Below are positions 42,241 to 50,360 of a DNA stretch of 64,000 nt, piece by piece. Under the pieces are notes generated by a model. It was not told where the DNA came from and made no database searches. It saw nothing but the letters and a program-made list of their open reading frames with translations. Position 1 is the stretch's first letter; every line of letters starts with the position of its first letter. The stretch lies in contig NC_006177.1 in the NCBI RefSeq assembly GCF_000009905.1, forward strand, positions 1,674,001 to 1,738,000. Direction: 5' to 3'. The position numbers and the translations under genes are program-made. Source of the stretch: Symbiobacterium thermophilum IAM 14863 (GTDB lineage Bacteria > Bacillota > Sulfobacillia > Symbiobacteriales > Symbiobacteriaceae).

Positions 42241-42371
42241 AGTGCCGGGGAGATTGCCCCGTACGGGGCCGCATACCCCGGCATCCAGGAGCTGTGTCAG
42301 CATAGGGGCAGGACCGAGCCGGGGCGGACAGCCGATCGTTCGGGAGGGCTTCGTCGGGGTGCCGCACCCGC

Positions 42372-42935
42372 GTTCCGGGCTGGCTTCGTGGCGGCGCGGC
42401 ACCCGCGTTCCGGGCTGGCTTCGTCGGGGGTGCCGCGCCCGGATGTCGGGTGGGCTGCGCCGGGGCGCGGTACCCGCATTCCGGGTTGGCTTCGTCCAGG
42501 CGCTAGCACCCGCATTCCGGGTTGGTTTCGTCCGGTCGCCAGCGCCCGCGTTCCGGGTTGACTTCGCCCAGGCGCTAGCACCCACATTCCGGGTTGGTTT
42601 CGTCCGGTCGCCAGCGCCCGCGTTCCGGGTTGACTTCGTCCAGGCGCTGGACCCGCGTTCCGGGTTGACTTCGCCCAGGCGCTAGCACCCACATTCCGGG
42701 TTGGCTTCGTCCAGGCGCTAGCACCCGCATTCCGGGTTGGCTTCGCCCAGGCGCTAGCACCCACATTCCGGGTTGGCTTCGCCCAGGCGCTAGCACCCGC
42801 ATTCCGGGTTGGCTTCGTCCGGTCGCCAGCACCCGCATTCCGGGGTGGCTTCGTCCAGGCGCTAGCACCCACATTCCGGGTTGACCTCGCCCAGGCGCTG
42901 GACCCACGTTCAGGGTTAACTTCGTCCGGGCTCTG
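42372..42935. repeat. 36-bp tandem repeat (minisatellite), about 16 units
   Basis: Units of the type TTCCGGGTTGGCTTCGCCCA followed by GGCGCTAGCACCCRCA. Two main variants alternate: CAGGCGCTAGCACCC and CGGTCGCCAGCRCCC. Most units are 36 bp; two with CGCTGGACCC are shorter by one base and shift any reading frame. Units are contiguous, without spacers. The outer units (42372-42470, 42900-42935) are more degenerate. The array fills most of the 836-bp gap before the carboxyltransferase gene. Confidence 0.9.
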
Positions 42936-43076
42936 CACCCGGGTCTCGGATGAGCTGGGGCGCTGCGCCCGCTCGGCGGCGGCGATGAGGCCGGGCGCGA
43001 CACAGGGGGTTGGCAGGGCTTCGGCCGGGCAGCGTTCCGCTGGGGAGAGGAGAATCGGCAGAGGGGGGAGAGGGCG

Positions 43077-44603
43077 ATGAGCCTGGATGCTGAGCTGAAG
43101 GCGCGGGAGGCGCGCATCAAGCAGGGAGGCGCGCCCAAGTACCACGAGCAGGCGCGGGCGAAGGGGAAGCTTTTCGCCCGGGAGCGGATTCGGCTTCTGC
43201 TGGACGATGGCTCCTTGGTGGAGGACGGCCTGTTCGCCAACTGTGAGGCCCCGGATCTGCCGGCGGACGGCGTGGTCACCGGGCTGGGGCGGATCGACGG
43301 GCGGCCGGTGGCCGTCATGGCCAACGACTCCACCGTGAAGGCGGGTTCGTGGGGGGCCCGCACGGTGGAGAAGATCCTGCGGATCCAGGAGACCGCCGAG
43401 CGGCTGCGCATCCCCATCTTCTACCTGGTGGACTCCGCGGGGGCGCGCATCACCGATCAGGTGGAGATGTTCCCCGGCCGCCGCCACGCCGGCCGCATCT
43501 TCTACAACGAGGTGCGGCTCAGCGGGCTCGTCCCGCAGATCTGCCTGCTCTTCGGGCCCAGCGCGGCGGGCGGCGCCTACATCCCGGCGTTCTGCGACGT
43601 GGTCTTCATGGTCCGGGGCAACGCCTCCATGTACCTGGGTTCGCCCCGCATGGCGGAGATGGTGATCGGCGAGAAGGTGACCCTGGAGGAGATGGGCGGC
43701 GCCGAGATGCACACCGCCGTCTCCGGCTGCGGCGACGTGCTCTGCGAGACGGAGGAGGAGGCCATCCAGCTCGCCCGCCGCTACCTGAGCTATTTCCCGC
43801 AGCGCACCGGCGAGCGGCCCGCCCCGGCGCCGCCGGCGGAGCCGAAAACCGGCCGGCCGCTGGCGGAGATCGTGCCGGTGAACCAGAACGCCGCCTTCGA
43901 CATGTATGAGCTCATCGACCGGATCATCGACGAGGGCTCCTGGTTTGAGATCAAGAAGCGGTTCGCCCCGGAACTCATCACCGGGCTGGCCCGGATCGGG
44001 GGGCGCGTGGTGGGGATCGTGGCCAACCAGCCCCGGGTGAAGGGCGGCGTGCTCTTCGTGGACTCGGCCGACAAGGCCGCCCGGTTCATCTGGCTCTGCG
44101 ACGCCTTCGAGATCCCGCTCCTCTTCCTGGCCGACGTGCCGGGCTTCATGATCGGCACCAAGGTGGAGCGGCAGGGCATCATCCGGCACGGCGCCAAGTT
44201 CATCGCCGCGGTCAGCGAGGCGTCGGTGCCCAAGATCTGCCTGGTGGTGCGCAAGGCCTACGGCGCCGGCCTCTACGCCATGGCGGGGCCCGCGTTCGAG
44301 CCGGACTGCACCCTGGCCCTGCCCACCGCCTCGATCGCGGTCATGGGCCCGGAGGCGGCGGTCAACGCCGTCTACGCGAACAAGATCGCGGAGCTGCCGC
44401 CGGAGGAGCGGCCGGCGTACGTGGCACGGCTCCGGGAGGAGTACCAGAAGGACATCGACATCTACCGGCTCGCGTCGGAGCTGATCGTCGACGGGATCAT
44501 CCCCTTCGAGCGGGTCCGGGAGGAGCTGCTGGCCCGGTTCGCCCTCTACGAGACGAGGCAGCAGAACTGGCCGGCGAAGAAGCGCCCGGTGACGCCGGTG
44601 TAG
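43077..44603 (+). CDS. Acyl-CoA carboxylase carboxyltransferase subunit
   Basis: 508 aa, beta-type carboxyltransferase of the propionyl/methylcrotonyl/geranyl-CoA carboxylase family. N half: GAPKYHEQARAKGKLFARER, PIFYLVDSAGARITDQVEMF, GPSAAGGAYIPAFCD; C half: FAPELITGLARIGGRVVGIV, LADVPGFMIGTKVERQGIIR, RKAYGAGLYAMAGPAFEPD, IAVMGPEAAVNAVYANKI. It transfers CO2 from the biotinyl carrier (37046) to an acyl-CoA. GARITDQVEMFPGRRHAGRI resembles methylcrotonyl/geranyl-type enzymes, consistent with leucine or terpenoid breakdown. Confidence 0.93.
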   Translation: MSLDAELKAREARIKQGGAPKYHEQARAKGKLFARERIRLLLDDGSLVEDGLFANCEAPDLPADGVVTGLGRIDGRPVAVMANDSTVKAGSWGARTVEKILRIQETAERLRIPIFYLVDSAGARITDQVEMFPGRRHAGRIFYNEVRLSGLVPQICLLFGPSAAGGAYIPAFCDVVFMVRGNASMYLGSPRMAEMVIGEKVTLEEMGGAEMHTAVSGCGDVLCETEEEAIQLARRYLSYFPQRTGERPAPAPPAEPKTGRPLAEIVPVNQNAAFDMYELIDRIIDEGSWFEIKKRFAPELITGLARIGGRVVGIVANQPRVKGGVLFVDSADKAARFIWLCDAFEIPLLFLADVPGFMIGTKVERQGIIRHGAKFIAAVSEASVPKICLVVRKAYGAGLYAMAGPAFEPDCTLALPTASIAVMGPEAAVNAVYANKIAELPPEERPAYVARLREEYQKDIDIYRLASELIVDGIIPFERVREELLARFALYETRQQNWPAKKRPVTPV

Positions 44604-44619: not shown

Positions 44620-44656
44620 GCGGAGGCGGTGCGCAGGGGGTGCGCACCGCCTCCGC
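44620..44656 (+). terminator. Terminator hairpin after the carboxyltransferase
   Basis: Perfect 16-bp stem (44620-44635 with 44641-44656) and GGGGG loop, 16 bp after the stop; no T-run. Confidence 0.7.
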
Positions 44657-44781
44657 GTCGGGGAGGGTTCACGCTCCGCATGGATCCGGGAGCGGCCGCG
44701 GCGGGCGGGAGTGGAACCGGACCCCTGCGCGGACCGTCTATCGGGCAGGACGCCTGTGCGCACAGAGAGGGGTTGCACCGG

Positions 44782-45837
44782 ATGAACGACAGAAAGAGAA
44801 CCGTGTGGCTCGCGCTCCTGGTGGTCCTGTCCCTGATCCTGGGCGGCTGCGGCGGCGCTCCCCAGAGTGCGGCCCGGGACAGCGGCGGCCCGGGCGGCCG
44901 CAGCGGCAGTGCCAGTTCGCCCAGCCCGGCCCCGGCGGCGGAGGTTCCGGCGGGTACGCCCTGGGCGGGCAGCGTCAGCTTCCTGGATACGGCGGAGAAT
45001 CCCGGCGACGAGGCCGCTGCCCCGACAGCGGATCGGAAGATCATCCAGAATGCCGAAGTCGAGCTGAGCGTCCGGGACGTGGACGAGGCCCTGACTTCGA
45101 TCACCGACGCCCTGACGCGGTCGGGGGGCTACGTCCAGGAAAACCGGGTGACGGGCACCCGCGAGCAGGGGCGCCGGGTGGCGATGACGCTGCGGGTGCC
45201 GGCCGGCAACTTCGGCCCGTTGCTGGACCTGCTCCGGGAGCTGGGCGAGGTACAGAGCCTCCGCCAGTGGACCAACGACGTCACCGAGGAGTACCTGGAC
45301 CTGGAGGCGCGCATCGAGACCGGCGAGGCCCACCTGGCGCAGCTCAACAGGCTGTACGAACGGAGCGGCACGATCTCTGAGATGATCGAGCTGGAGCGGG
45401 AGATCGCCCGGGTGACCGCCGAGCTGGAGTCGCTGAAGGGCCGGTACAACTTCCTGGCGAACCAGGTGGCGTTCAGCACCGTGAGCGTCTTCATGTACGA
45501 GCCTGGCGTGCCGGCGCCGGCCCGCAGCCCGCAGAGCCTGGGCGAGCGGATGCGGGACAGCTTCCTGTTTTCGTGGAACGCCACCATCCACTTCGCGGAG
45601 GGGCTCCTGGTAGCCCTCGTCGGCCTGATCCCCGGCCTGCTCTTCCTGGCCGTCCTGGTCGGCATCGTCGGCGGCGTGATCTGGCTGATCGTGCGGGTCC
45701 GGCGTGGCCGGGGAGGCCCGCCGGGCGGCGGGAGCCGGGGTGAGCCGGCGGCCCGTCCGCTGTACTCCCCGCCGGGGGCCGACACCGCCGGAGACCGACC
45801 CGGCGGCGGAGCGGGCGCGGGCCAGGCGGAAGGGTAA
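44782..45837 (+). CDS. DUF4349 lipoprotein
   Basis: 351 aa. Lipobox LILGGCGG, low-complexity linker, then the DUF4349 domain: KIIQNAEVELSVRDVDEALT, GGYVQENRVTGT, MTLRVPAGNFGPLLDLLREL, TEEYLDLEARIETGEAHLAQ with a long coiled coil (about 210-265), and a C-terminal membrane helix (FLAVLVGIVGGVIWLIVRV) followed by a Gly/Pro-rich tail. A membrane-attached periplasmic-side coiled-coil protein of unknown role. ATG 44782 chosen with AGAGAGGGG upstream. Confidence 0.85.
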   Translation: MNDRKRTVWLALLVVLSLILGGCGGAPQSAARDSGGPGGRSGSASSPSPAPAAEVPAGTPWAGSVSFLDTAENPGDEAAAPTADRKIIQNAEVELSVRDVDEALTSITDALTRSGGYVQENRVTGTREQGRRVAMTLRVPAGNFGPLLDLLRELGEVQSLRQWTNDVTEEYLDLEARIETGEAHLAQLNRLYERSGTISEMIELEREIARVTAELESLKGRYNFLANQVAFSTVSVFMYEPGVPAPARSPQSLGERMRDSFLFSWNATIHFAEGLLVALVGLIPGLLFLAVLVGIVGGVIWLIVRVRRGRGGPPGGGSRGEPAARPLYSPPGADTAGDRPGGGAGAGQAEG

Positions 45838-45930: not shown

Positions 45931-45963
45931 ACCGGCGGCCGCGGGCGCACCGCGGCCGCCGGT
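45931..45963. terminator. Bidirectional terminator hairpin
   Basis: Perfect 13-bp stem (45931-45943 with 45951-45963), seven-base loop, TGTCTCCTTCC on the plus side, between convergent genes. Confidence 0.65.
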
Positions 45964-45993: not shown

Positions 45994-47058
45994 CTAGGGC
46001 CCCTCCAGGCTGTTCGTGATGATGACCGGCGTGCCCAGCTCCACCCGCTCGTAGAGCTGCTCGACCTCGCCGTTGCTCATGACAATCGACCCTTCCGAGT
46101 TCCACCGGCCCAGGGCCTCGGGGGCGTTGGTGCCGTGGATCGCCCACAGCGATCCGCCGTCGCCTTCGAACACGGTGAAGCCGATCCAGCGGGTGCCCAG
46201 CGGGTTGGCGGGGTCGAGGGCGTCGATCCCCTCCTTATAGTACGGCATGCCCGGCACCATGAGGGTCACCGTGAACCGGCCGGTGGGGGTGAGGAGGTTC
46301 TCGGTCCAGTTGTCTGGTGATGGGGCGGGGCCGGCGACGTGGCGGCCGGTGGACACCCGGGCGGTCTGGACCAGTTCGCCGTCCTCGTAGTACCAGAGGA
46401 CGTTGAGCCCCTTGTCCACCACGATCACAGTCGGCTCAGGCGGCGCCACGGGGGCCAGGGCCGCGTAGTAGTCGGCCGGCACCAACCCGTGCTCGGCGTC
46501 GAGCGCCCACGCCCGGAAGAAGGGCTCGCCACCGCGGGCCTCCAGGGCAGGCTCGCCGCCGACGGAGACCTCCACGGGCTCCCCCAGGCGGGGAAGGGCG
46601 CCGCGCCAGACCAGCAGGCCCTGTGCCCGGGGCAGGTCCATGATCTCCACCGGCCCCTCCGGCATGCTGATCGGCTGCCCCAGGAGCGCGGCATCCGGCC
46701 CCCACCCGTCCACCAGGGCCACCTGGAGGCGGCCGTCGTCGGCCGCGGAGACCGCCACCCGCTCGGGTTCGCCGTCGCCCGTGAGGTCGGGGGCCTCCAG
46801 GATCCGTTCCGGGGCAAAGGGCAGGGCCGCGGGCGCCTGTTCGACCGGTTCGGTGACGTCCGGGGAGGAAGGGGGCGCCAGGGCGTGCCGGATTCGCATG
46901 ACCGCCCAGCGGACGCCGAAGCCCAGCCCCACGAGCACGCCAATCAGGGTCAGCAGCGCCAGGGCGCGCCTGCGGGCGTAACGCCTGCGCCGGGCCTCCC
47001 GCCGGCGCCACGCGCGCCGGGCCGAGTAGTGCGCGTCCGGTTCGTGCAGGTGGGACAT
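45994..47058 (-). CDS. L,D-transpeptidase-fold (YkuD) protein with Ser in place of catalytic Cys
   Basis: 354 aa. Basic N-terminus, one membrane helix (ALALLTLIGVLVGLGFGVRW), a middle region with a calcium-site-like LTGDGEPERV, then the YkuD domain: VIVVDKGLNVLWYYEDGELV, LTPTGRFTVTLMVPG and HGTNAPEALGRWNSEGSIV. The family motif is HGT...S-x-G-C-I-R; here both Cys and Arg are changed (G-S-I-V), the Ser codon being TCG. The rest of the domain (MSNGEVEQLYERVELGTPV) is fully kept. The protein may be a non-catalytic peptidoglycan binder, or a Ser nucleophile variant. ATG 47058 gives AGGAGGG a six-base spacing. Confidence 0.85.
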   Translation of the reverse strand: MSHLHEPDAHYSARRAWRRREARRRRYARRRALALLTLIGVLVGLGFGVRWAVMRIRHALAPPSSPDVTEPVEQAPAALPFAPERILEAPDLTGDGEPERVAVSAADDGRLQVALVDGWGPDAALLGQPISMPEGPVEIMDLPRAQGLLVWRGALPRLGEPVEVSVGGEPALEARGGEPFFRAWALDAEHGLVPADYYAALAPVAPPEPTVIVVDKGLNVLWYYEDGELVQTARVSTGRHVAGPAPSPDNWTENLLTPTGRFTVTLMVPGMPYYKEGIDALDPANPLGTRWIGFTVFEGDGGSLWAIHGTNAPEALGRWNSEGSIVMSNGEVEQLYERVELGTPVIITNSLEGP

Positions 47059-47099
47059 GGGCATCCCTCCTCGGCCGCGTACCGTGGTACGTTGCCTTG

Positions 47100-47130
47100 A
47101 TTATAACCTATCTTCTAGTTTCGACTCCAA
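47100..47130 (-). promoter_or_regulatory. Possible promoter for the YkuD-like gene
   Basis: On the minus strand perfect TATAAT (47105-47100) with TTGGAG 19 bp upstream (47130-47125); the spacer is longer than usual. Confidence 0.4.
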
Positions 47131-49268: not shown

Positions 49269-49418
49269 GGGCGCGCAGCGGGGTGCCTCCCGCCTGGCGC
49301 CCCTTTTCACAAAGCTGCGACAGGCCGGGAGGGATTTCGCCCGTTCCCGGAGAAGTTGGGTGCAGTTGGAGTCCGCGACTACCACCCGGGGTTGTCTCCG
49401 CTACGGGAGGTTGATGAT

Positions 49419-50360
49419 ATGGAGGAGATCGGCCGGCGCCTGAAGGCGGCGCGGTTGGCCAAAGGGCTCACGCTGGAGCAAGTGGAGGAAGAGACCCGCA
49501 TCCGCAAGAAGTACCTGGATGCGCTGGAATCGGGCCGGACGGTGCTCATCCCCGGCGAGGTCTACGTCAAGGGCTTCCTGCGGAGCTACGGCAACTTCCT
49601 CGGCCTGGACGGCGAGGGCCTGGTGGAGGAGTACAAGGCGCTCAAAGCCCGCCCGGCGGCCGAGGATGGCGCCGGGAACGGCGGCCCGGCCGAAGCTCCC
49701 GCCCGCGAGCCGGAAGCGGCGATCGCAGCCAGCGCCCCCCGTGCGTCCGCGGAGCCCCGGCAGCCGGCGTTCGCCACGCCTCCCCGCCGATCCAGCCGGA
49801 GCCGTCCCAAGCGCCGCCGCAACGGACCGGGGCCGGGCGTGTACTTCCTCCGCCGGCTGATGGTCGCGCTGATCCTGATCCTGCCGCTGGCGGCGGCCGG
49901 CTGGTGGTTCTGGGGCCGCCAGGCGGCGGCGCCCCCGCCGCAGGAGCCCGGCCAGGTGGCGCAAGAGCCGGGGACGACGGCGCAGCAGCCCGAACCCGAG
50001 CCAGAACCCGAGCCGGAGCCCGAACCGGAGCCCGAGCAGCCGCCCGCGTCCGGGCAGCCGGTGCCGGCGAAGCCCGTGATCACGGTCGGCGCCCCCCAGG
50101 GAGACGAGGTGGACATCACCATCACCGCCTCGGAGGTCCAGCTGGAGATGGACTTCACCCAGGGCTTCCCGTGGCTCGAGGTGTACAGTGGCGGCGAGAC
50201 CCTCTACTGGAGCAAGGCCAGCGGTCCGCTGTCGTTCACCGGCAAGGATTTCCGGATTCGCATCGGCTTCGTGGCCGGGTTTCAGCTTGCGCTCAACGGC
50301 GAACCAGTGGACCACAAGCTGGAGGGCGGCCCGTACTGGATCAACATCAAGACCCAATGA
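49419..50360 (+). CDS. rodZ: RodZ-like cell-shape protein
   Basis: 313 aa. N-terminal helix-turn-helix of the RodZ type (EIGRRLKAARLAKGLTLEQV, IRKKYLDALESG, VYVKGFLRSYGNFLGL), a low-complexity linker, one membrane helix (LMVALILILPLAAAGWWFW), an external Glu-Pro repeat stalk (about 207-225), and a C-terminal beta domain of the DUF4115 kind (WLEVYSGGETLYWSKASG). RodZ ties MreB filaments to the membrane. ATG 49419 with GGGAGG upstream is chosen; the next gene is a D,D-carboxypeptidase, a fitting envelope partner. Confidence 0.8.
   Translation: MEEIGRRLKAARLAKGLTLEQVEEETRIRKKYLDALESGRTVLIPGEVYVKGFLRSYGNFLGLDGEGLVEEYKALKARPAAEDGAGNGGPAEAPAREPEAAIAASAPRASAEPRQPAFATPPRRSSRSRPKRRRNGPGPGVYFLRRLMVALILILPLAAAGWWFWGRQAAAPPPQEPGQVAQEPGTTAQQPEPEPEPEPEPEPEPEQPPASGQPVPAKPVITVGAPQGDEVDITITASEVQLEMDFTQGFPWLEVYSGGETLYWSKASGPLSFTGKDFRIRIGFVAGFQLALNGEPVDHKLEGGPYWINIKTQ

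Follow-up and report, generated by a model that had tools for sequence, protein, structure and literature searches.

A YkuD-fold protein of Symbiobacterium with serine at the catalytic cysteine position is probably a natural pseudo-L,D-transpeptidase

Introduction

What becomes of an L,D-transpeptidase fold in which serine stands in place of the catalytic cysteine? The question is raised by a gene in a 64,000-nucleotide stretch of the chromosome of Symbiobacterium thermophilum IAM 14863 (NC_006177.1, positions 1,674,001 to 1,738,000; the window, throughout), an organism reported to be thin-walled and to stain Gram-negative (PMC11448272). The original prediction, made from the sequence alone, described an L,D-transpeptidase fold with a Cys-to-Ser change, held that the gene was not decayed, and offered a pseudo-enzyme and a Ser-based variant as two ways of reading it. 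Earlier evidence for L,D-transpeptidases acting without catalysis is that from a laboratory mutant, LdtJ C390S, and a search of the open-access literature found neither a natural, selected pseudo-L,D-transpeptidase nor a natural YkuD protein lacking the Cys.

Gene and protein architecture

The gene and its flanking signals, with the parts of its product, are as follows.

45994..47058, minus strand: gene for the Ser-type YkuD protein (putative pseudo-L,D-transpeptidase), from the open reading frame, Shine-Dalgarno spacing and the start of the ortholog in genome G001
45996-45994, minus strand: stop codon of the YkuD gene, from the sequence
47100..47105, minus strand: TATAAT, a putative −10-like hexamer upstream of the gene, read from the sequence
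45931..45963, minus strand: terminator-like hairpin just 3' of the gene, 13/14 pairs G-C, from a sequence scan
46891..46962, minus strand: single predicted transmembrane helix, about residues 35-58, from the sequence and a long helix (11-62) in the model
46468..46815, minus strand: predicted extracytoplasmic all-beta middle domain, about residues 84-199, without a Pfam family, from the AlphaFold model
46015..46431, minus strand: YkuD domain, residues 212-350, from Pfam and the model

The minus-strand reading frame can be opened at a longer start (45994-47064, 356 amino acids), from which all residue numbers below are counted. The start at 47058, which the original prediction had taken as the gene end, is probably the better one, because AGGAGG precedes the ATG at 47058 by 7 nt and that at 47064 by only 1 nt, and because the G001 ortholog begins at the Met matching 47058. 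A promoter scan did not include the TATAAT at 47100-47105 among its reports.

The protein consists, in order, of an Arg-rich N-terminal segment, a transmembrane helix, the all-beta middle domain and the YkuD domain; the short N-terminal segment is predicted from its positive residues to be cytoplasmic. The Pfam YkuD profile (PF03734) matched residues 212-349 with E 2.9e-22 and 80.3 bits, against a curated cut-off of 23.4 bits, and was covered over positions 2-146 of 146, near its full length; NCBIfam gave L,D-transpeptidase matches on the protein at sub-threshold level only. The AlphaFold model has a mean pLDDT of 90.3, with 94-98 in the YkuD part, and this part is predicted to adopt the YkuD fold, superimposing on Bacillus subtilis YkuD (1y7m) with Z 18.0 and an rmsd of 1.9 Å over 112 residues. 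The middle domain had no match in Pfam and no convincing match in fold searches, the best Foldseek hit having E 0.3 and the best VIA match, the lysozyme inhibitor PliI, having Z 8.1, near the range typical for models without a clear match.

Active-site substitutions

The YkuD motif of the protein reads WAIHGTNAPEALGRWNSEGSIVMSNGEVEQLYERV (HGTNAPEALGRWNSEGSIVMSN), and four positions of the former active site are of particular concern.

46087..46089, minus strand: Ser326 (TCG) at the catalytic Cys position, from sequence and alignment
46081..46083, minus strand: Val328 (GTC) at the conserved Arg position, from sequence and alignment
46135..46137, minus strand: His310 of HGT, the conserved YkuD histidine, retained in the alignment
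46096..46098, minus strand: Ser323 of S-x-G, retained in the alignment

An active enzyme of the YkuD type carries the His of HG[TN], an S-x-G, the catalytic Cys in S-x-G-C and an Arg two residues after that Cys. H310, G311, S323 and G325 are invariant in the alignment, so that the first two elements are present here. The catalytic Cys is replaced by Ser326 in the window protein and its two same-genus orthologs, giving the S-E-G-S-I-V motif on which the original prediction rested, and the Arg is replaced by Val or Leu at 328 in these three proteins. All non-orthologous YkuD domains of the class in the alignment have Cys at 326 and Arg at 328; in mycobacterial enzymes with HGCZN, Asn rather than Arg is found two residues after the Cys (PMC11410929). 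By its sequence, the protein of this genus fits the definition of a pseudoenzyme as one in which conserved catalytic residues are missing (PMC10211241). The companion loss of the Arg, together with the solitary status of the protein described next, lies beyond what the original prediction had emphasized.

Distribution and genome inventory

In a sample of 398 genomes from the window's own phylum, a motif pattern left free at the Cys position matched 302/398, with TGY codons there throughout among the matches listed, and the Ser version, searched exhaustively as TCN codons, matched 1/398, the window's own. Five genomes were compared more closely: the window's own (G000, a single contig of 3,566,135 bases), two of the same genus (G001 and G002) and two from sister genera (G003 and G004). 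The numbers of YkuD proteins detected in them were 1, 1, 1, 2 and 4, respectively. A genome scan of G000 found no Cys-type YkuD paralog that might serve as a backup, so that the genus would be without any YkuD-type L,D-transpeptidase if the Ser protein is inactive. G000 does encode a single VanW + G5 protein with an intact GGGICQ (L062:1213-2037, minus strand), a candidate for any L,D-transpeptidation in the genus; Clostridioides difficile VanW proteins can be L,D-transpeptidases, although activity is absent from some VanW proteins (PMC12729407).

A probable single origin from a Cys-type enzyme

The original prediction had proposed collecting close homologues, and universal Cys among them would have spoken against it. 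Both same-genus orthologs instead carry Ser: the motif reads SEGSVLM in G002 (77% identical) and SEGSILM in G001 (70%), Leu occupying position 328 in both where the window protein has Val. The Ser codons of the three genus members are TCG, TCC and TCG, and the reading frames of all three genes are intact. Cys appears in the sister genera, the motif being SDGCIRM in G003 (51%) and SDGCIRL in G004 (46%). The G003 gene lies between asnS and a carboxyltransferase gene, as it does in the window, and the G004 gene adjoins the same carboxyltransferase gene; because this locus is held in common, the two Cys-type genes are positional orthologs. The Ser proteins are monophyletic in a tree of 44 sequences (support 100/99), their clade lying within a set of Cys proteins. 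This monophyly, with Cys and Arg in the positional orthologs of the sister genera, makes it look as though the change from Cys to Ser arose once, in the stem of the genus. The Ser-type sample comprises three genomes, two of them fragmented assemblies, and a scan of genome contigs added only the record L061, whose match coincides in position with the G002 ortholog.

Several features lie close by. A tandem array at 42364-42941, in which a 36-bp unit (consensus GCACCCGCATTCCGGGTTGGCTTCGTCCAGGCGCTA) is repeated about 16 times with 82% matches, stands upstream of the carboxyltransferase gene at 43077. Between the carboxyltransferase and YkuD genes, on the plus strand, is a DUF4349 gene (44629-45837) that occupies the corresponding position in both G001 and G002. 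The DUF4349 gene of G004 adjoins a different, Cys-type YkuD gene (L068), which hints that the two families are linked. Also near the YkuD gene, at 49356-50360 on the plus strand, is a gene for a RodZ-like protein (HTH_25, with RodZ_C below threshold), conserved at the same locus in G001.

Purifying selection on the altered domain

The YkuD domain lacking its catalytic Cys is under purifying selection and is not decaying, in agreement with the original view of the gene. It is the best conserved part of the Ser-type proteins. Comparison of their three genes gives the YkuD domain a dN/dS of 0.145-0.177, the middle domain having 0.265-0.350, and invariant residues number 106/139 in the former against 70/126 in the latter (Fisher P = 4e-4); three intact genes at these values are those of a protein retained under selection. 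Of 44 columns that are each conserved in at least 70% of the remaining members of the class, 31, 31 and 30 are kept by the Ser proteins and 34, 31 and 29 by three Cys-type proteins of the family. Beyond drift common to the family, it was specifically the Cys and the Arg that the Ser clade lost.

The stem branch of the genus is longish, at 0.7 changes per column. Lineage-specific changes relative to the Cys ortholog stand at 20:9 for YkuD and at 46:29 for the adjoining carboxyltransferase (Fisher P = 0.5), and since the latter is similarly accelerated, the somewhat fast Symbiobacterium stem is not specific to the YkuD gene.

A probable pseudo-L,D-transpeptidase at the wall

We favor, with moderate confidence, the interpretation that the window protein is a natural, membrane-anchored pseudo-L,D-transpeptidase whose remaining role is probably to bind stem peptides or to act as a scaffold. 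Published Cys-to-Ser mutants suggest that it would have no transpeptidase activity. LdtMt2 C354S yields no product with natural muropeptides (PMC11410929) and is not acylated by beta-lactams (PMC6391942), and it has been crystallized with natural substrate (PDB 8PXY; PMC11410929). Acinetobacter baumannii LdtJ C390S is likewise inactive; growth and shape remain intact without the activity, suggesting a non-enzymatic role (PMC12548408).

We propose the following model. A membrane-anchored YkuD protein, an enzyme of the Cys/Arg type in the family ancestor, lost both catalytic residues in a single episode on the stem of the genus, Cys giving way to Ser and Arg to Val or Leu, and would since have been maintained as a non-catalytic protein. 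The N-terminal helix would tether it to the membrane, and the middle beta-domain would be a pedestal or spacer. The YkuD pocket, intact in that the His, the Ser-x-G and the fold are kept, would hold peptidoglycan stem peptides without acylation, allowing the protein to act at the wall as a tether, sensor or scaffold. Both the binding of stem peptides and the scaffold role are speculative. The lost Arg could have aided substrate binding, in which case its loss may weaken binding too. The LdtJ precedent is not proof of binding by a dead pocket, because the whole YkuD domain of LdtJ is dispensable: a version lacking it remains stable and still supports growth and shape (PMC12548408).

That same deletion, together with the loss of both catalytic residues, speaks for a purely structural or partner-binding role, in which the YkuD fold serves as a scaffold to which protein partners attach, with no ligand in the former active site. 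The RodZ-like gene nearby points in the same direction, although proximity alone is weak. Against this interpretation, H310, G311, T312, S323 and G325 of the pocket are all kept, for which the chance if they were neutral is roughly 4e-6, a figure in which constraint from the fold and constraint from a ligand are inseparable. We regard the empty-pocket scaffold as unlikely, while giving it more credence than the readings that follow.

A second possibility is that Ser326, activated by His310, is itself a nucleophile forming an oxygen-ester acyl-enzyme, the protein then being a hydrolase rather than a 3-3 transpeptidase: an L,D-carboxypeptidase, an amidase or a beta-lactam-reacting protein, with stem peptides or beta-lactams as substrates. 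The YkuD enzymes, which depend on Cys, would then include a naturally serine-based one whose chemistry is altered and probably hydrolytic. His310, Ser323 and Gly325 are retained, and the persistence of Ser, rather than Ala, Gly or varied residues, at 326 in all three species despite a change of codon could hint at use of the hydroxyl. One neutral codon would stay unchanged across the three species with a chance of roughly 0.09, however, so that this retention is weak evidence for a hydroxyl role. DpaA amidases and L,D-carboxypeptidases have no Arg at the second residue after the nucleophile either, but they still need and use Cys (PMC8263019). Serine-dependent beta-lactam hydrolysis has been described for Lpg1514, a YafK-like protein of Legionella pneumophila, but the serine concerned, Ser132, occupies another place in the pocket than the Cys position, and the protein still has its Cys174 (PMC13400389). 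Since the catalytic-site Arg has also been lost here, and since LdtMt2 C354S and LdtJ C390S are inactive and the former remains unacylated, the pseudo-enzyme is favored over a Ser-based enzyme, and of the two readings in the original prediction the first has gained ground and the second has become rather improbable.

A YkuD gene under relaxed constraint that no longer has a function and is being lost would account for the longish stem branch and the 20:9 ratio, but the neighboring carboxyltransferase is accelerated alike, dN/dS after the change is 0.15-0.18 and the frames are intact in three species. With these values and the carboxyltransferase as a control gene, decay into a pseudogene was rejected as very improbable. 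Sequencing or assembly error, or a strain-specific mutation, is scarcely credible and was rejected: a swap of two bases could turn TGC into TCG, but the separate assemblies of three species, at 70-77% identity, all have Ser, with differing codons and a linked loss of the Arg.

On the pseudo-L,D-transpeptidase interpretation, a whole genus, as represented by three genomes, appears to retain only a dead version of the YkuD protein, which raises the question of how, or whether, it makes 3-3 cross-links, the single VanW protein being a candidate. With Cys-type orthologs occupying the corresponding locus in the sister genera, there is a natural before-and-after pair for a fold kept without its chemistry.

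Comparison with known systems

The window protein shares with the YkuD L,D-transpeptidases (PF03734, 1y7m) their fold, the His of HGT, the S-x-G and the surrounding sequence, and its positional orthologs are of this type; it differs from them in having Ser for the catalytic Cys and Val/Leu for the catalytic-site Arg, so that a feature by which their catalysis is defined is absent. The YkuD fold and the absence of the Arg are common to it and to the DpaA/YafK amidases and L,D-carboxypeptidases (Csd6, Pgp2), but these keep the catalytic Cys, and a protein lacking it falls outside their group. In contrast, the VanW L,D-transpeptidases (LdtCd4, LdtCd5) have a fold unrelated to YkuD; the one VanW+G5 protein of the window genome has their type of domain with GGGICQ, and no PG4 domain is reported in it. 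Lpg1514 is an earlier case of Ser-based chemistry within the YkuD superfamily, with the Ser elsewhere and the Cys in place. In the engineered inactive mutants LdtMt2 C354S (8PXY), LdtFm C442S (2hkl) and LdtJ C390S, the same Cys-to-Ser change is carried by the same fold; in Symbiobacterium, unlike these laboratory constructs, the replacement arose naturally, has become fixed in three species and goes together with loss of the Arg.
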